DNA of 63,817 bases from an uncultured Pirellulaceae bacterium (GTDB lineage Bacteria > Planctomycetota > Planctomycetia > Pirellulales > Pirellulaceae). Both the position numbers and the translations under genes were made by a program. The notes beneath the pieces are model-generated. The model searched no databases. It was given only the letters and a program-made list of their open reading frames with translations, and was not told the origin of the DNA. The stretch's first letter is position 1. Each line of letters starts with the position of its first letter. Below, piece after piece: positions 1,997 to 29,808 of this stretch. Where the stretch lies: NCBI GenBank assembly GCA_938010615.1, contig CALLUY010000002.1, forward strand, positions 1 through 63,817, in the 5' to 3' direction.

Positions 1997-4117
1997 TTAT
2001 CGAAGTTCGTCGGCCACATCGACGGCCGTTGCCGTTCTGCCATTTAGCGGAGAAGACTCGGATACCCGAACCACAACTCCATCGACCAAGTCCACTCCAA
2101 AGCCGGCCCATTGAGAGAAGGGGAAATCGACAACGCCATCTCGGCTTAGGATAGTCAGGCTAACATTCTGCTCAAGACCAGCTAACTGACTTGCTGCTGC
2201 TTCCGTTAACGAAATGTAGTCGTTGATGCCTGCCTGATAAAATCGATCCGAGAATGTTGGCCCAAAAGTAGATGATGAAAAACTGTCCCCCACAGCGAGC
2301 ACTCGACCGTCATGAAAAGCAAAAGTCAAACGACCAAAAACAGTTTCCTCTGCCAACGCTTCATCCACGCCAATCTCGAATAGCCGAACTTCACGACCGT
2401 AGCGGTCGGCCAACTCCAGCGCCTCATCCAGCGCGAGGCCTCGATAGAATTCTCCGCTGGGCGATTGGACGTTGTTTACAATGAAAACCGTTCCATTTCT
2501 AATCGTCATCGAAATGTTACTTAGATCTAGTGTGTTGTCTCGCCAAACCGTTACGCCATCTTCCAACCTGATGGTGTACTTGCGGTTCTCGGCAAGAGCT
2601 TTGTCACGAGCTTGCTGCGCTGTCAAGCCGAAGTAACTTGAGAGCGAGTCAACGACAGATTCTCTGTCGACGCCTTCTTCAAACCCCGCGACCTTGTCGC
2701 CAGCATCCGGGCCCACGTAAGTGTCTTGCCCTACAGCCCCATAAAGCAGGTCGTTTCCCGCCTCGCCTTCAATCCTGTCGTCACCAACTCCTCCGTTGAG
2801 TCGATCATCCCCGTCGCCGCCAATAAGATTATCGTTGCCGGCCATTCCAAATATCCTGTCGTCGCCGAAAAAGCCTCGAATGGTATCATCGCCATCACCA
2901 CCATAAATCCGGTCATCGCCCTGAGCTCCATCAATAATGTCTCCGCCGCTGTTTCCATTGATAAAGTCATCACCACGCCCACCGTTGATGCGATCAATTC
3001 CATCGCCGCCAAAGATCGAGTCTTCACCTGAATCGCCGTTTAACCGATCTGCATCGCCGTTTCCACTAATGATGTCGGCCCCCAAGCCACCATTGATCGT
3101 GTCTCTTCCAGCGCCTCCGATAAGTCGATCCTTGCCTTGCTGCCCATCGATTGTATCGATGCCGTCCTGCCCAAGAATCAAATCAGCACCAGCACCCCCT
3201 TCAATTCTGTCGTTTCCGTCTCCTCCATAGATCGTGTCATCGCCGTCACCGCCATAGATGCGGTCGCCACCAAGGCCTCCATAGATCACGTCATCCCCGT
3301 ACCCGGAGTAAATCGTATCGTTGCCAGCTCCGCCCCAGATGTTGTTTACATAAGGGCCAGGATTCGGCGCACTGCGCTCAAGCCCAAACAAACTGACCGT
3401 ATCATTTCCCGCTCCACCTGAAAAAAGATTTATACCGCCAACGTCAAACAGGAAATCATCTTGCCTGCCACCATACAGCTCATCGTTACCAAGACCACCG
3501 TGAAGTCGATCCTCGCCAAAACCTCCGTAAAGCTGATCGTTGCCATTGCCGGCCCTTAAAGTATCGTCGCCAACTCCACCATAGAGCTGCGAGTTGGTCT
3601 TGAACTCACTAGAAATCGGAACTGCATTGTCTTCCAGCGTGTCATCACCGTTGCCACCGTAGGCGACCAATTCAACGTTCACCTCTGTCAGGGTGTAGTC
3701 CAGCAAGTCGTCTCCATCGGAACCGGTAAACAGGATATTTGTCAATTGTGTCAATTGAGTGTTCGCACCCGCATCAGAACTCAACGACAAAGAATCATTA
3801 AATTTCCGTCCAATGAAGCGAATGGTTTGAATTTCATCAGCAGCAAACGACTGGACGTCACCATTTAAACTGCTCGTGACATTCACCGTCCCGTCAATCG
3901 TTTCATTGAAATCAAAATTTGCACTTTCGGTAGCAGAGGCAACGATCCTGAGTGTGCCGTCGACAAGCAAAACACTGGACAGCAGTGTTCGGTCTTCCAA
4001 TGTCTCAACGACTAGCCCTGTTGAACAGGAAGTCTTTTCTTCGATTCGAAAACACGGTTGAAGAAAACGAAGGAGAACATTGCGATACTTTTGGCACGTG
4101 GTTGACAAATTCCTCAT
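1997..4117 (-). CDS. RTX-type calcium-binding protein with C-terminal I78-like modules
   Basis: A probable exported or surface protein of 706 residues. Near residue 40 it has ETLEDRTLLSS, the LExRxLLs motif at the N-terminus of many large planctomycete exported proteins. A beta-rich region follows, then a long run of nonapeptide repeats (GGxGxDxxx, roughly residues 150-480) that in RTX proteins bind calcium as parallel beta rolls. The last ~220 residues hold three modules, starting YFGLTAQQA, YRGLALDEA and YISLTEAAA. Each continues to a DGV or DGR near its end, recalling the potato-inhibitor-I/I78 protease inhibitor fold (my inference). The frame extends to a TTG at 4180, but the ATG at 4117 follows a GGAAAG ribosome binding site, so I prefer it. 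Target unknown. Confidence 0.85.
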   Translation of the reverse strand: MRNLSTTCQKYRNVLLRFLQPCFRIEEKTSCSTGLVVETLEDRTLLSSVLLVDGTLRIVASATESANFDFNETIDGTVNVTSSLNGDVQSFAADEIQTIRFIGRKFNDSLSLSSDAGANTQLTQLTNILFTGSDGDDLLDYTLTEVNVELVAYGGNGDDTLEDNAVPISSEFKTNSQLYGGVGDDTLRAGNGNDQLYGGFGEDRLHGGLGNDELYGGRQDDFLFDVGGINLFSGGAGNDTVSLFGLERSAPNPGPYVNNIWGGAGNDTIYSGYGDDVIYGGLGGDRIYGGDGDDTIYGGDGNDRIEGGAGADLILGQDGIDTIDGQQGKDRLIGGAGRDTINGGLGADIISGNGDADRLNGDSGEDSIFGGDGIDRINGGRGDDFINGNSGGDIIDGAQGDDRIYGGDGDDTIRGFFGDDRIFGMAGNDNLIGGDGDDRLNGGVGDDRIEGEAGNDLLYGAVGQDTYVGPDAGDKVAGFEEGVDRESVVDSLSSYFGLTAQQARDKALAENRKYTIRLEDGVTVWRDNTLDLSNISMTIRNGTVFIVNNVQSPSGEFYRGLALDEALELADRYGREVRLFEIGVDEALAEETVFGRLTFAFHDGRVLAVGDSFSSSTFGPTFSDRFYQAGINDYISLTEAAASQLAGLEQNVSLTILSRDGVVDFPFSQWAGFGVDLVDGVVVRVSESSPLNGRTATAVDVADELR

Positions 4118-10526: not shown

Positions 10527-11351
10527 ATGTCAGACGAAGAATCATTGCCAGAAGACGCAGAGACAACTCCTGTCGACGGCGCCGAACAGTCGGCAGCCGA
10601 AGTTCAGGTCGTTGATGATGCGGATGGTTCGTCTGAGGATGCTTCTGCGAAGCCAGAGGTTGAGCTTTCGCCGGAAGATCTTGAGTTTTCTGCTGATGAA
10701 ATCATCACCGACGAGGACGACGAGTGGGGAGACGATGACGAGGATGCGTCACCGATCGAGGAATTCGTTGAGCCCGTCAAGGAAGTTAAAGCTTCTGACC
10801 TTGAGATGAACTGGTACATCCTGAAGGTTCAGGTGAACCGCGAAAAGGGTATCTGTGAGACGCTCAAGCGTTCGGTTCGCGTTGCCGGAATGCAGGATTT
10901 CTTCGGCGATATCCTTGTGCCCACCGAAGACGTTCGCGAATTCAACAAGGCTGGTAAGCCAAAGATTACGAAGCGGAAGCTTTATCCGGGCTACATCGTT
11001 GTGAATATGGCGATCACGGATGAGTCTTGGTTTTTGGTGCGAGACACCAGCGGAATCGGTGACTTTGCAGGTGCTGCGGGTCGTCCTTCGCCGCTTTCTC
11101 AAGAAGAAATTGATCGAATCATCGCAGCGGCACGTCCTCCTAAGGGCGAGGATGTGGAAGACCAGATCAAGACCACGATCCCGTTCAAGGTTGGCGATCG
11201 AGTACGTGTAAAAGAAGGCTATTTCCAGAACTACGAGGGTGATATCTCTGCGGTGGACGAGCGAAATGGTCGAATTGAAGTCTTGATCAACATCTTCGGT
11301 CGTCCGAATCCGGTCGATATGGAGCACTGGCACGTCGAGATGGTCAAGTAG
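10527..11351 (+). CDS. nusG: Transcription termination/antitermination factor NusG
   Basis: NusG binds the RNA polymerase clamp and couples it to the ribosome or to Rho. The protein is 274 residues, about 95 longer than usual. Residues 1-94 form a very acidic, probably disordered extension (runs such as DEDDEWGDDDED). The NGN domain begins at MNWYILKVQVNREKG (about residue 95) and includes KRKLYPGYIVV. The KOW domain lies at the end with FKVGDRVRVKEGYFQNYEG and INIFGRPNPVDM. The start at 10527 keeps the extension; an internal start at the Met of MNWYI would give a normal-length NusG, but I see no strong ribosome binding site there. Confidence 0.96.
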   Translation: MSDEESLPEDAETTPVDGAEQSAAEVQVVDDADGSSEDASAKPEVELSPEDLEFSADEIITDEDDEWGDDDEDASPIEEFVEPVKEVKASDLEMNWYILKVQVNREKGICETLKRSVRVAGMQDFFGDILVPTEDVREFNKAGKPKITKRKLYPGYIVVNMAITDESWFLVRDTSGIGDFAGAAGRPSPLSQEEIDRIIAAARPPKGEDVEDQIKTTIPFKVGDRVRVKEGYFQNYEGDISAVDERNGRIEVLINIFGRPNPVDMEHWHVEMVK

Positions 11352-13474: not shown

Positions 13475-13885
13475 ATGTCAGACGAGACAGCAACAATCGA
13501 ATTTTCTGCAGAAGCAAAATCACTTGGCGACAAGATCGCTGAGTTGACGCTTAAGCAAGCTAAAGAGTTGAGCGAGTACTTGAAGGAAGAGCACAAGATC
13601 GAAGCTGCTGCTGGCGGCGCGGTTGTCATGGCCGGTGGCGGTGGTGGCGGTGGCGAAGCTGCTGCGGAAGCCAAGACTGAGTTCGACGTAATCCTGACTG
13701 GATTCGGCGACAAGAAGCTCGACGTTGTGAAGGTCGTAAAGACAATCACAGGTGCTTCACTCATGGAAGCCAAGAAAATGGTCGAAGCTTGCCCTGCGAC
13801 GCTCAAAGAAGGCGCTTCGAAGGAAGATTGCGACAAAATCAAAGCGGACGTCGAAGCTGCTGGTGGTAGCGTCGAGCTCAAGTAG
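13475..13885 (+). CDS. rplL: 50S ribosomal protein L7/L12
   Basis: L7/L12 is the flexible stalk protein that recruits translational GTPases. I use the ATG at 13475, giving 136 residues starting MSDETATIEFSAEAKSLG. A GTG 33 bp upstream is in frame, but an AGAGG-type ribosome binding site directly precedes the ATG. The N-terminal dimerisation helices are followed by an Ala/Gly-rich hinge (a run of seven glycines). The C-terminal domain is complete from EFDVILTGFGDKKLDVVK to AAGGSVELK. Confidence 0.97.
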   Translation: MSDETATIEFSAEAKSLGDKIAELTLKQAKELSEYLKEEHKIEAAAGGAVVMAGGGGGGGEAAAEAKTEFDVILTGFGDKKLDVVKVVKTITGASLMEAKKMVEACPATLKEGASKEDCDKIKADVEAAGGSVELK

Positions 13886-14549
13886 TTCGTCGATGTTCGG
13901 CTAGCAGTTGAATCGGTTCCTGTCGCGATGCTCGCCTGATTTGGTGTGCATTTGACGAGATGCTGGATTTCGACTGCTTCGAAGGCTATTGATGCGTACA
14001 TGAAACGGCGGGCAGAACGATTTATCGTCTGCCCGTTGTTTTCGTTCAAACCTCGCTGTTTTTGCCCTATTTATGGGGCTTGTCAGCGTCAGAGAAATCT
14101 CTAGGGCGGCGGGAGGCGAATTCGCCAAAATCTCGGCGTTTTTGTAGAATTGGCAAAGGTGCGGTGTTTCGGGGTTGTGAAAACCCAAGATGCAGCAGAA
14201 ACTATGCCCAGTTGGTTTGAGCAGTGTGGTCGCAGGGAAGCTTTCGTCGGTTGGTGCCCGATGTTTCTAACGTTTTCGGAATCGCTATTTGATTGCGTTA
14301 CCGGTACAGCGTTAGAGAGCCTTAAGACCACATTAAGTTTTAATTCGCCGAACGTTTTTGATGATTCGCCCTCATTAATGCGTTTGAGCAGAACTCAATC
14401 AGGAACCGCATGCGTTCATTTCGCACGCCTGGACAATATGTATCCCAGACCTGTTGCAACGTCTTGCGCAGGTGGTTTGTTTCTTCAGTACCGGTGTGGA
14501 CTTGTGTCTGCACTTTTTGCCTGACAATTGATCCGGAGATTTTGCGCTT
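13886..14549. other. 664-bp spacer between rplL and rpoB
   Basis: No gene is supported. The spacer holds a strong hairpin with a T-rich tail (14003-14043). An open frame at 14150-14524 lacks family features. The length suggests attenuation after rplL and a separate rpoBC promoter, but I could not pick out a convincing -35/-10 pair. Confidence 0.5.
14003..14043 (+). terminator. Hairpin terminator or attenuator after rplL
   Basis: CGGGCAGA (14009-14016) pairs with TCTGCCCG (14028-14035). With G-U and A-T pairs the stem extends to about 14 bp (from 14003 to 14041), and the 3' side runs into TTGTTTT. It lies 118 bp after the rplL stop. It fits an intrinsic terminator, or an attenuator lowering rpoBC relative to the ribosomal proteins. 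Confidence 0.65.
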
Positions 14550-16523
14550 ATGGCAACCCCAGTAGAGCGACGTTTACGCCCAAAAGATGTTCGACGATTT
14601 GGCAGTGGACGGGATTACCACTTGCCGCCCGATCTGACAAAAATTCAAACAGTGAGCTTCAAAGCTTTACTGCAAGAGGATGTTGATCCGGAGAAACGGA
14701 AAGACCAAGGCATCGAAAGTGTCTTGCGCGAAATCTTTCCGATTCAAAGCTATGACAAAAAGCTCTCGCTTAGCTACGTGCGATACGAGCTTGGAAAGCC
14801 ACGTTATACGCCGGAGGAATGTCGTCAGTTGCGTCTGACGTACGGACAGCCTTTCCGCGTTTGGTTGCGTCTTGAGAAAGAGCAACCAGTCGAAGAGGAA
14901 GTGTTCCTTGGCGACATCCCAATCATGATGGGTGGCGGTGAGTTCATCATCAACGGTGCCGAGCGCGTCGTGGTGAGTCAGCTTCACCGTTCGCCGGGTA
15001 TCGACTTCGTGATGGCTTCGGACACGACGTCTGATCGTAAGCTTGCGAGCTGCCGAGTGATTCCTGAGCGTGGAAGTTGGATCGAGATCAACGCAACCAA
15101 AAAGGATGCTTTGACGGTTCGGATTGACCAGAGCGGTAAGTTCTCTGCGTTGACTCTCTTGCGGGCGATGGATCCAAAGTTCAGTGAAGACTCGGACATC
15201 ATTCGTGCGTTCTACGATACGATGAAAGTCAAAGTTGTCGACGGTCGCAGTGCTGCGAAACTTGAAGGCAAGATGGCCGTTGATGACATCGTCTACCCTG
15301 CTGGCTCAAAGCGTGCTGGCGAAATCATTGTCGAATGTGGCCACAAGATCAGCAAAGAGAACTCGGAGCTTATTTGCACTGCAGGTGTGAAGGTTTGCGA
15401 GATCATGAATCCGGTGAAGTCACCGCTGATTTTCAATTCTCTAATTGACGACAATACTTCTTCGCACGAAGAAGCTCTGCTGCGTATCTATCAGCGACTT
15501 CGTCCCGGTAACCCGGCTGCGTTGGAGAAGGCACGTACGCTGTTTAACGAAAAGTTTTTCGATTCGAATCGATATCGACTTGGAAAAGTTGGGCGTTTCC
15601 GCATCAACCGAAAACTCGATCTTGGTGTCAGCGAAAAAGAGATGACACTGCGTCCGGAAGATATTCTGGCATCGATTCAGTACATCTTGGATCTTTCGAC
15701 TCCGGGTGCGGATGCGATGGTCGACGATATTGACCACCTTGGCAATCGCCGTCTGCGAACGATCGACGAGTTGGCTTGCGACGAGATGCGAAAAGGTTTC
15801 CTTAAGCTTCGCCGCACCGTTCAGGAGCGAATGAGCCAGAAGGAAGTCGATGATATGACTCCGCGTTCATTGGTGAATCCGAAGAGTGTTTCGGCTTCGA
15901 TCGATTACTTCTTCGGTCGCGGTGAACTTTCGCAGGTTGTTGACCAGACGAACCCGTTGTCCCAGTTGGCTCACGAGCGTCGTCTTTCGGCTCTTGGTCC
16001 TGGTGGTTTGAACCGTAAGCGTGCGGGTTTCGAAGTTCGCGACGTTCACATTTCTCACTACGGTCGAATTTGCCCGATTGAGACTCCCGAAGGTACCAAC
16101 ATTGGTTTGATCTCCAGCCTCGCGATTTGTGCGAGCGTTGATGATTATGGATTCCTGGTGACGCCATACGTTGTGGTCAACAAAGGAAAGGTAACGGACG
16201 AAATTCGTTTGTTGCGTGCCGACGAAGAAGCGGAGGCTCATGTGGCTCCCGCGGATACGCCAATTAAAGACGGACGAATCGTCGGAACGAAATCGCTCGG
16301 CGGAAACATTCTTGCTCGATTCCATGCTGACTTCGAGTTGGCTGATCCGGAAGAGCTGGAATACATGGACGTTGCCCCGGCTCAAATGGTCGGTGTTTCA
16401 GCCAGTTTGATTCCGTTCCTTGAGCACGATGATGCGAACCGCGCCCTGATGGGTTCGAACATGCAACGCCAAGCCGTTCCGCTGTTGGTGGCAGAGCCTC
16501 CGATTGTTGGTACCGGTATGTAG
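14550..16523 (+). CDS. rpoB: RNA polymerase beta subunit, N-terminal part (ends at in-frame TAG)
   Basis: Residues 1-657 of RpoB, from [18 protein letters not shown] to PPIVGTGM. It includes the protrusion, lobe and fork regions and the rifampicin-site sequence ([20 protein letters not shown]), where the Gln, Asp and His contact positions of E. coli are kept but Phe514 is Val. The frame stops at TAG (16521-16523), where RpoB proteins normally read Glu in GTGME. The next eight codons, in the same frame, read RHVAVNSS, which continues the conserved sequence. The complete gene would span 14550-18287 with 1245 codon positions. A sequencing error, a real nonsense mutation, readthrough or a split subunit are all possible. 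Confidence 0.93.
16521..16523 (+). other. rpoB: In-frame amber codon inside rpoB
   Basis: The sequence reads ATG TAG CGT CAT GTT GCG. TAG is one base away from GAG, the Glu expected after GTGM. The frame is unbroken on both sides and the residues after the stop remain conserved. The base after TAG is C. Confidence 0.9.
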
Positions 16524-16547
16524 CGTCATGTTGCGGTTAATAGCTCG

Positions 16548-18287
16548 ATGGTGATCAAGGCACGCCGTGCCGGAAAAGTCACTTTCGTGGACGCGACGCG
16601 AATTGAAATCGGCAACGATGTCTATCCGCTCAAGAAATACGTTGGACTCAATGAGCGAACGTGTAACAACCAGAAGCCATTGGTGATGCCTGGCCAGAAG
16701 GTTGAGAAAAACGAAGTGATCGCAGACGGTGCGGCAACGTTTGAGGGTGAATTGGCTCTCGGTCGTAACGTGCTCGTCGGTTTCATGTCGTTTGACGGTT
16801 GCAACTTTGAAGATGCGATCATCATTAGCGAAGAGCTCGTTCAGAACGATACTTACACTTCGATTCACATCGAAGAGTTCGACGTTGAAGTTCGCGAAAC
16901 GAAGCTGGGTCGTGAAGAGTTCACTCGCGATATTCCAAACGTTAGCGAAAAAGCACTTCGTAACCTGGACGACGCTGGAATTATTCGCGTTGGTACTTTC
17001 GTCAAGCCAGGCGAGATTCTTGTTGGTAAGGTGTCGCCGAAATCGAAAACAGAGCTGACTCCGGAAGAGAAGCTTCTTCACGCGATCTTCGGTCGTGCCG
17101 GTGAAGATGTGAAGAACGATTCACTTGAGGTGCCGTCTGGTATCGAAGGTATCGTGATCGACGCACAACGATTCTCTCGTCGTATGAGCCTGTCTGAAGA
17201 AGAGCGAAAAGTCTTCGAGCAGGATCTCAAAGCGGCTGAAGCTGATGGCAACGAAGAGATTGCTCGTGTCTTCGGCGAGATGGTCGAAGTCATGGAGAAA
17301 ATCCTCGGCAAGACTTTGACCGATCAGGATGATACTCCTTTGGTTCGCAACCAAGATCCAAAGTTCATCGCCGAAAAGGCAAATGCTTTCCGCTTGCAAA
17401 CTTACGTGAACGATCTTCGTAGCGAGGATCGCGTCAAGCAGATGAAGCAGGCTTACGCGGAGCACTGGCCGGACATCGAGAAGGTTATTGAAGCTCGCGA
17501 TCGCAAGGTCAACAGCATGAAGCGTGGCGATGAGCTTCGCAGCGGCGTTCTGCAAATGGTCAAGGTTTACATCGCGACCAAGCGAACGATTTCCGTCGGC
17601 GACAAGATGGCTGGTCGACACGGTAACAAGGGTGTGATCTCCAAGATCCTTCCTGTGGAAGACATGCCGTTCCTTGAAGATGGAACGCCGGTTCAGATCA
17701 TGCTCAACCCGTTGGGTGTACCTTCGCGTATGAACGTGGGGCAGATCCTTGAAACTCACCTCGGTTGGGCTGGTTCGAAGCTTGGTTTCCAAGCGTTGAC
17801 GCCAGTGTTCGATGGTGCTTCTGAGAAGGACATCAACGAAGCGTTGGCTGAGGCTGGTTTGCCGTCACACGGTAAGCACACTCTGATCGACGGACGTACG
17901 GGGCAACCTTGTGGTCAAGAAACAACGGTCGGCTACATCTACATGTTGAAGCTGCATCACCTTGTTGACGACAAAGTTCATGCTCGAAGTACAGGACCTT
18001 ACTCGCTGATTACTCAGCAGCCGCTCGGTGGTAAGGCTCGTTTCGGCGGCCAGCGTTTTGGAGAGATGGAAGTATGGGCTCTGGAAGCTTACGGGGCTGC
18101 CTACATCCTTCAGGAATTGCTGACGGTCAAGTCGGACGATGTCGAAGGGCGTACGAAAATCTACGAGTCGATGGTCAAGGGCGAGAACACGCTCGAAGCC
18201 GGCACACCAGCCAGCTTCGACGTTTTGACTAACGAGATTCGTGGGCTGGCATTGAACATGCAGCTTGAAAAACGACGGGGCGGTTAA
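16548..18287 (+). CDS. rpoB: RNA polymerase beta subunit, C-terminal part
   Basis: The rest of RpoB (579 residues from the first ATG after the stop), in the same frame as the upstream part. It contains [20 protein letters not shown] with the Glu-Asp pair near the catalytic Mg, the flap region, [12 protein letters not shown] with conserved lysines and histidine, LGWAGSKLG, and the C-terminal clamp/switch segment [19 protein letters not shown]. No Shine-Dalgarno sequence precedes the ATG at 16548. As a separate product it would start by reinitiation 24 nt after the stop and would lack RHVAVNSS. Codon use matches the upstream part. I think this is one gene with an interrupting TAG rather than a designed two-part subunit. 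Confidence 0.9.
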
Positions 18288-18416: not shown

Positions 18417-23960
<5,544 letters not shown>

Positions 23961-28124: not shown

Positions 28125-28952
28125 ATGCTCGACTTGTACGACAAAATTCAGGAAGCGGTTGGAGTCATCCAGCAGCAATTTTCGACGGCTCCTCACGCCG
28201 GCATCATTCTCGGCACTGGCTTGGGGCCGTTGGCTGAAAAGATCGAAGTGGAAGCCTCCATCGATTACGGAGACATTCCGCACTTCCCCAAGTCGACAGC
28301 GCTTTCGCATAAAGGGCGCCTCGTTTGCGGGAAGCTGGCTGGCCTGCCGGTCATCGCGATGGAAGGTCGTACTCACATGTACGAAGGCTATCCATTGAAA
28401 GAGGCGACGTTGCCGATCCGCGTGATGAAAGCGCTCGGTGCGAATCTGTTGGTTTGCTCGAACGCCGTCGGAGGCCTGAACCCCTACTACCGCAAAGGGG
28501 ACATCATGGTCATCGAAGATCAGATCAACATGATGGGCGACAATCCACTGATCGGAATCAATGACGATCGACTGGGGCCGCGGTTCCCGGATATGTGTGA
28601 GCCTTACCGACAAGATTTGGTCGATCGTGCATTGAGCATCGCTCGCGCCGAAGACATTGTTGCTCATAAAGGCGTTCTGGTTGCAGTCGCCGGTCCGAAT
28701 CTTGAAACGCGAGCCGAGTATCGAATGCTCAGGACGATGGGCGCCGATGTGGTTGGCATGTCGACGATTCCAGAAGTCATCGTTGCGGTTCACGCCGACA
28801 TGCGAGTCGTTGGTTTCTCTGTGGTAACGGATTTGTGCTTCCCCGATGCGTTGGAACCAGCCGATGCGCACGAGATCGTGAAGATTGCCAACGAAGCAGA
28901 ACCTTCGCTTTCAAAATTGGTAGTGAAAGTCCTTGAAATGGAAACGGCCTAG
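28125..28952 (+). CDS. Purine nucleoside phosphorylase, trimeric type (paralog 1, Asp variant)
   Basis: A 275-residue enzyme of the PNP/MTAP family, which splits purine nucleosides with phosphate to base and ribose-1-phosphate. Seen: the phosphate loop GIILGTGLGPLA, GRTHMYEGY, SNAVGGLNP, and GPNLETRAEYR, which holds the Glu equivalent to human Glu201. At the position of human Asn243 it has Asp (VVTDLC). Asn favours 6-oxopurines, while Asp at this place is found in MTA phosphorylase and permits 6-aminopurines. So this copy may prefer adenosine-type substrates (inference). A second paralog begins 10 bp after its stop, so the two are co-transcribed. Confidence 0.93.
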   Translation: MLDLYDKIQEAVGVIQQQFSTAPHAGIILGTGLGPLAEKIEVEASIDYGDIPHFPKSTALSHKGRLVCGKLAGLPVIAMEGRTHMYEGYPLKEATLPIRVMKALGANLLVCSNAVGGLNPYYRKGDIMVIEDQINMMGDNPLIGINDDRLGPRFPDMCEPYRQDLVDRALSIARAEDIVAHKGVLVAVAGPNLETRAEYRMLRTMGADVVGMSTIPEVIVAVHADMRVVGFSVVTDLCFPDALEPADAHEIVKIANEAEPSLSKLVVKVLEMETA

Positions 28953-28962
28953 CCTGTCATTC

Positions 28963-29808
28963 ATGAATGCGGACTTCAAAACTTTGATCGCCGAATCGGT
29001 CGAGTCGATTGCCAGCCGTTGGGACGGAAGTCCACGTTTTGGAATTGTGCTCGGTACCGGCGCGGGCATCGTCGCGGATCACATTCAAGCAGAGGCCACC
29101 CTGCCCTACGGCTCGATCGCCAACTTTCCGGTTAGCACGGCAACCGGTCACAAGGGTAATCTCGTTTGTGGCACGTTGGATGGACATGAAGTTGTCGCGA
29201 TGCAAGGACGTTTCCATCTGTACGAGGGATACGACGTGGATCATGCGACGCTGCCGATTCATGTGATGCATGCGATGGGAGTTGAATTTTTGTTCGTCAG
29301 CAATGCGGCTGGTGGACTAAACCCGAAGATGGACAGCGGCGATGTGATGCTGATCGACAGCCATGTCGACTTCATGAATCGAACATCGCCTCAGATCTCG
29401 GCCGCTCCCGTGATGCAACGTCCTTCCTTTCGAAGTGATCAGGCTTACGATCCTGAACTGATTGAGGCTGCTCATGCGATTGCTCGGCACGCTGGATTTG
29501 CACTTCATCAAGGCGTCTATGCGGCGATGTTGGGTCCGAACTATGAGACGCGAGCCGAGTATCGTTTTTTGCGTCGAATGGGAATCGATGTCGCTGGCAT
29601 GTCGACGGTTCCCGAAGTAAACGTGGCGGCAGCGAACGGAATTCGAGTTCTCGCGATGTCGATCATCACCAACGTCGCAAACCCGGATGTGCTCGAATCG
29701 ACGTCCGGAGAAGAAGTCATCGAGGCGGCTCAGGTTGCAGCGCCGAAGCTCAAGAGCATCGTCAGCGGTTTGATCGCACAAATACAAGCCCAAAGCGCCA
29801 GCGAGTGA
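28963..29808 (+). CDS. Purine nucleoside phosphorylase, trimeric type (paralog 2, Asn form)
   Basis: A 281-residue paralog of the preceding gene. It has GIVLGTGAGIVADHI, MQGRFHLYEGY, SNAAGGLNPKMDSGDVMLI and GPNYETRAEYRFL. It keeps Asn at the human Asn243 position (IITNVANPD), the usual form for guanosine/inosine. I place the start at the ATG at 28963; the frame extends upstream into the end of paralog 1. The last nine codons lie inside the left arm of a long inverted repeat (29781-29867), so the tail IQAQSASE was probably contributed by that repeat. Together the pair may cover oxo- and aminopurine salvage. Confidence 0.93.
   Translation: MNADFKTLIAESVESIASRWDGSPRFGIVLGTGAGIVADHIQAEATLPYGSIANFPVSTATGHKGNLVCGTLDGHEVVAMQGRFHLYEGYDVDHATLPIHVMHAMGVEFLFVSNAAGGLNPKMDSGDVMLIDSHVDFMNRTSPQISAAPVMQRPSFRSDQAYDPELIEAAHAIARHAGFALHQGVYAAMLGPNYETRAEYRFLRRMGIDVAGMSTVPEVNVAAANGIRVLAMSIITNVANPDVLESTSGEEVIEAAQVAAPKLKSIVSGLIAQIQAQSASE

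Follow-up and report, generated by a model that had tools for sequence, protein, structure and literature searches.

A private in-frame TAG in rpoB of a draft Pirellulaceae genome, most probably a consensus error

The rpoB locus and its internal TAG

The window, by which we mean the whole stretch of DNA that was analysed, is one complete contig (C2) of 63,817 nucleotides from the draft genome of an uncultured Pirellulaceae bacterium, an assembly of 221 contigs and 4.70 Mb that is 84.28% complete. Its forward strand carries an rpl-rpoB-rpoC operon in which rpoB follows rplL (13475-13885) and precedes rpoC (Table 1). The rpoB frame opens at an ATG and closes at a TAA (18285-18287), and its sole interruption is one internal TAG. 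Upstream of this stop, matches are found to the Pfam domains Rpb2_1, Rpb2_2, Rpb2_3 and external-1, in order, and the part that begins at the next in-frame ATG matches Rpb2_6 and Rpb2_7, the succession of Rpb2 domains that, together with the operon, characterizes a bacterial beta subunit. Aligned to the Escherichia coli beta chain, with query residue 2 at chain residue 649 and no gap up to query residue 58, the stop codon falls on Glu705. A sequence-only reading of this DNA had described an rpoB with an in-frame TAG at a conserved glutamate codon, and we indeed find the TAG in the window and glutamate in the relatives. When 398,431 bases of the genome were scanned by codon usage, the site emerged as the top candidate for a coding frame that continues across a stop, which indicates that the interrupted frame is not a product of chance ORF geometry.

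Table 1. Coordinates of rpoB, its parts and two further, intact genes in the window
Feature	Position	Strand	Remark
nusG, intact	10527..11351	+	ends TAG-CGT, same 3' context as internal TAG
rpoB, RNA polymerase beta subunit	14550..18287	+	one frame, single internal stop
Upstream open part of rpoB, 657 aa	14550..16523	+	ends at internal TAG
Internal in-frame TAG of rpoB	16521..16523	+	residue 658; GAA/GAG (Glu) in 29 near relatives
Downstream open part of rpoB, 579 aa	16548..18287	+	starts at next in-frame ATG
rpoC, intact	18417..23960	+	ends in TAG

The neighboring rpoC has a peculiarity of its own. The C-terminal tail of its product (approximately 22884-23957) contains four helix-hairpin-helix stretches (HHH_5, also DUF4332) that form near-identical repeats, and RpoC is 1847 residues long here versus 1757 in the corresponding ORF of the only single-contig genome of the genus (G025); the number of tail repeats thus seems, from this comparison, to vary within the genus.

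Conservation of the site and constraint on both sides of it

The genus comprises 28 genomes, and RpoB is 70-94% identical to the genus, family and order relatives that we found, with G025 at 94%. Among named rpoB loci, those closest to the C-terminal part in the window also belong to Planctomycetota (L035, 79%; L032, 70%). The codon at the TAG site specifies glutamate in all 29 near relatives (GAA in 16, GAG in 13), and glutamate likewise occupies this position in 80 of 80 public rpoB loci drawn from many bacterial phyla. None of the 26 other genus genomes that cover the site, out of 27, has a stop there, and a search of 60 relatives returned no stop in any matched rpoB stretch of the 59 other genomes, 58 of which cover the codon. 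At the level of the class, rpoB was matched in 244 of 248 genomes and, among the matches listed, a stop occurred only in the present genome; a closer look at 23 genomes gave 42 matched rpoB stretches, none with a stop. Twelve class genomes showed two rpoB matches of similar size and were considered as candidates for a natural two-piece gene. Eleven of them proved to have a single open frame of 1253-1299 codons, so their two pieces reflect an alignment gap rather than a split, and the twelfth (G205) is a truncated contig piece.

Compared with G025, the nearest relative, the stop codon differs by one base, a G-to-T change, and it is the sole difference at the amino acid level from 53 codons before the site to 19 after it. 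A second G-to-T change lies 312 bases before the TAG, where the codon at 16209-16211 reads leucine here and tryptophan in 29 of 29 near relatives; because the 80-locus comparison shows this residue to be variable in other bacteria, we do not count it as evidence of error. Against G025, the dN/dS of rpoB is nearly the same on the two sides of the stop (0.048 before, 0.049 after), and close to the stop, in the 100 alignment columns on either side, the values are 0.11 before and 0.033 after. The downstream half of the gene is therefore constrained, in agreement with the earlier suggestion that conservation continues past the stop, and the gene has no visible decay of the kind expected from an old nonsense mutation. 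Together, these data establish that the assembly contains the stop, that no other genome compared shares it, and that the surrounding gene is constrained in the normal way.

These comparisons bear on whether the TAG could be a genuine nonsense mutation carried, for a short time, by the sampled cells or by a part of them, either in a dying lineage or in a genome whose second, intact rpoB is missing from the assembly or has been collapsed. A very recent mutation would be consistent with a downstream part that has not decayed, and a second rpoB could be missing from a genome that is only 84% complete. Against this, family, protein and DNA searches of the 84.28%-complete genome each failed to find the second rpoB that the sequence-only reading had named as a thing to look for. 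The gene is essential in bacteria, and for this reason a fixed null allele of a sole rpoB cannot last. We consider a true nonsense mutation of this kind quite unlikely.

They bear equally on a beta subunit made in two pieces, in which translation would terminate at the TAG and restart at the ATG at 16548, and both fragments would assemble into RNA polymerase. Large RNA polymerase subunits are naturally split in some lineages, and the break in the present gene falls between Pfam domains that are matched separately. In the available text of PMC2675907, archaeal Rpo1 is described as split into two subunits, and the present locus resembles that case in that its two open parts follow each other, in order, in a single operon. 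It differs in that the relatives are uninterrupted, with no split at this position in any of them and an open frame across the site in the 26 other genus genomes, and in that the second part has no visible start signal: nothing resembling a Shine-Dalgarno sequence could be read ahead of 16548, and the ATG at 16528, which lies closer to the stop, is in another frame. Restarting at 16548 would also lose the nine residues from the TAG to that ATG, including the conserved stretch that follows GTGM-E. Thus neither a start signal of its own, as judged by reading, nor a split conserved in relatives accompanies the second part; the missing start signal and the relatives' uninterrupted frame bear out the earlier view that a designed split is unlikely, and we regard a two-piece subunit as exceedingly improbable.

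Use of TAG and the decoding apparatus

TAG is an ordinary terminator in this organism. Across 32 window genes checked, 19 end in TAG, 9 in TAA and 4 in TGA, with TAG at the ends of tuf, secE, nusG, rplL and rpoC and TAA at those of rplK, rplA, rplJ and rpoB; that tuf, secE, nusG and rpoC all end in TAG had been stated before and reads correctly in the window. The genome has a release factor 1 family match above cut-off, and the gene is intact with no internal stop. We counted 50 tRNA genes with Rfam and 54 with ARAGORN run on the stretches that hold them, and the anticodon CUA, which the sequence-only reading had also proposed to search for, occurs in none of the 54, in a genome whose 84% completeness means that a gene could be missing. 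It is absent as well from the tRNA genes of G025, which has 58 Rfam matches.

The tRNA complement includes 14 genes packed into an array of less than 2 kb (L142 1684-3555, on contig C153 of this genome), whose members score lower than the dispersed tRNAs and carry anticodons, none of them CUA, that duplicate those of dispersed genes. G025 has a similar array of 15 tRNA genes (L275 462-2552) as well as smaller clusters of four and five. Such tRNA arrays have been described in other bacteria.

Some reassignments first came to notice through a TAG within an essential gene, as the part of PMC8629427 available to us describes, and the rpoB stop raises the same thought. In the present organism, the features that would mark a reassigned UAG (a TAG that is common within genes and seldom ends them, and a release factor 1 that is altered or gone) are not what we find: TAG ends 19 of the 32 window genes checked, release factor 1 is present, no CUA tRNA is found among the 54 tRNA genes, and the other internal-TAG candidates in the 398 kb that were scanned resemble gene ends. 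Terminator use, release factor, tRNA set and codon scan all contradict reassignment of TAG to an amino acid, which had already been judged unlikely from the sequence and to which we give almost no credence.

A stable, real TAG that is read through, by natural suppression or in a context-dependent manner, would yield full-length beta in smaller amounts. The constraint that persists past the stop is consistent with such an arrangement, and the available part of Belinky et al. 2021 (PMC7918605) reports bacterial genes in which in-frame stops occur under purifying selection. The rpoB stop is like those cases in being in-frame with low dN/dS on both sides, well below 1. Within that same part, sequencing error is controlled for by requiring that a stop recur in at least two genomes, and here rpoB differs, since its stop is shared by no other genome compared. 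Nor do the local features favor readthrough. There is no CUA tRNA among the 54 of this genome or in G025, the 3' context of the stop is that of the nusG terminator (TAG-CGT), and the RNA after the stop has no unusual structure and is no more stably folded than shuffled sequence (z = 0.78). Readthrough of a stable TAG is accordingly very unlikely in our estimation, and we would put even less trust in its fullest form, in which beta would be made by amber readthrough at a universally conserved glutamate and the supply of polymerase would depend on the efficiency of that event.

Assembly quality and the case for a consensus error

To judge the quality of the assembly, we compared the window with 62 ORFs from a syntenic 80 kb of G025, 35 of which match it; 14 of the 53 window ORFs have no match in that region and stand outside this comparison. 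A stop lies inside the matched stretch in five of the 35 ORFs, namely rpoB, nusG and three short ORFs. In nusG, the stop lies ahead of the point where the window gene starts, and the short ORFs are not gene-like (one is in a tRNA region, one is antisense to rplL and one is a weak 62-residue match), which leaves rpoB as the only clear gene with an internal stop. In the same comparison, the neighboring ORFs at 28125-28952 and 28933-29808 each match the other's G025 counterpart at 45-46% identity and are probably tandem paralogues.

The codon-usage scan gave 15 candidates in its 398,431 bases versus 16 in 400,000 bases of G025. The highest score in this genome, 0.13, belongs to the rpoB site, the next being 0.07, and G025 reaches 0.10 at best; the power of the scan is limited, as artificially placed stops were recovered at rates of 84.6% (threshold 0), 61.0% (0.05) and 27.8% (0.1). 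With a single clear stop-bearing gene and similar numbers of candidates in the two genomes, an error, if it is one, would be isolated. At columns that are invariant among relatives, RpoB departs in 3 of 705 positions here versus 0 to 23 in 29 other genomes. The same count over eight ribosomal, tuf, secE, nusG and RNA polymerase genes is 14 of 2418, against 0 to 158 in 21 relatives and 6 in G025; the ORF at 14150, used as a ninth query, found a match in just one relative and contributed no usable column. Several of the 14 departures would take two or three base changes each and have the look of evolved differences, so these counts do not amount to a high error rate. The tryptophan-to-leucine difference at 16209 is among the 14. 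The assembly is thus not visibly poor in general, and the rpoB stop is an isolated event. That the assembly is not visibly error-rich counts against an error, as does the lack of a stop in the rpoB of the 59 other genomes surveyed, from which it follows that such errors are uncommon in this group.

A parallel case comes from the public loci. A stop fell within the aligned part in 4 of the 80 rpoB loci, and three of these are normal gene ends. The fourth, in a draft genome of an uncultured Spartobacteria (L070, CAIJRY010000086.1), is an internal TAG at position 3806 of that locus, at a site that differs from the present one, with glutamate in 73 of the 80 loci and an open frame on both sides. 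As far as sequences can tell, two unrelated draft rpoB genes with TAG for glutamate at different places are more suggestive of isolated errors than of biology, and the pair indicates that isolated nonsense calls recur in draft rpoB sequences.

The change itself is of a type that could arise artificially, G-to-T being a known artefact class of oxidised DNA in human exome data as presented in the accessible text of PMC12390751. This alone proves nothing, as true mutations of that type exist. Our literature search on split beta subunits, amber rpoB and draft-genome errors, which covered subscription journals little, did not find the present case. The stop resembles isolated false stops in draft consensus sequences in that it concerns one base in one genome, lies in a conserved gene, is unshared and is accompanied by no decay; it differs in that the error is deduced here and not seen in reads.

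No suppressor, special context, sharing by relatives or decay accompanies the stop, and a consensus error therefore accounts for it best. The fragmented draft, the private nature of the stop, the single rpoB found, the ordinary terminator context and the Spartobacteria parallel all favor this account. We hold it very likely that the TAG is a single-base consensus error of a draft, metagenome-type assembly in a normal, full-length, single-copy rpoB. In an alternative form of such an error, the assembler would have picked a read variant that is not representative. Under either form, the codon in the living organism would be glutamate, as in the relatives, its translation would be ordinary, and reads or a resequenced cell would be expected to lack the TAG. 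The sequence-only reading had left three outcomes, an error, a nonsense mutation tolerated through suppression or readthrough, and reinitiation; our results favor the first and make the other two unlikely.

It would be remarkable if the stop were real, since an essential gene would then need readthrough or a subunit made in two pieces. On the present evidence, the case serves chiefly as a caution that a single stop in a conserved gene of a draft genome should first be checked against relatives and reads.
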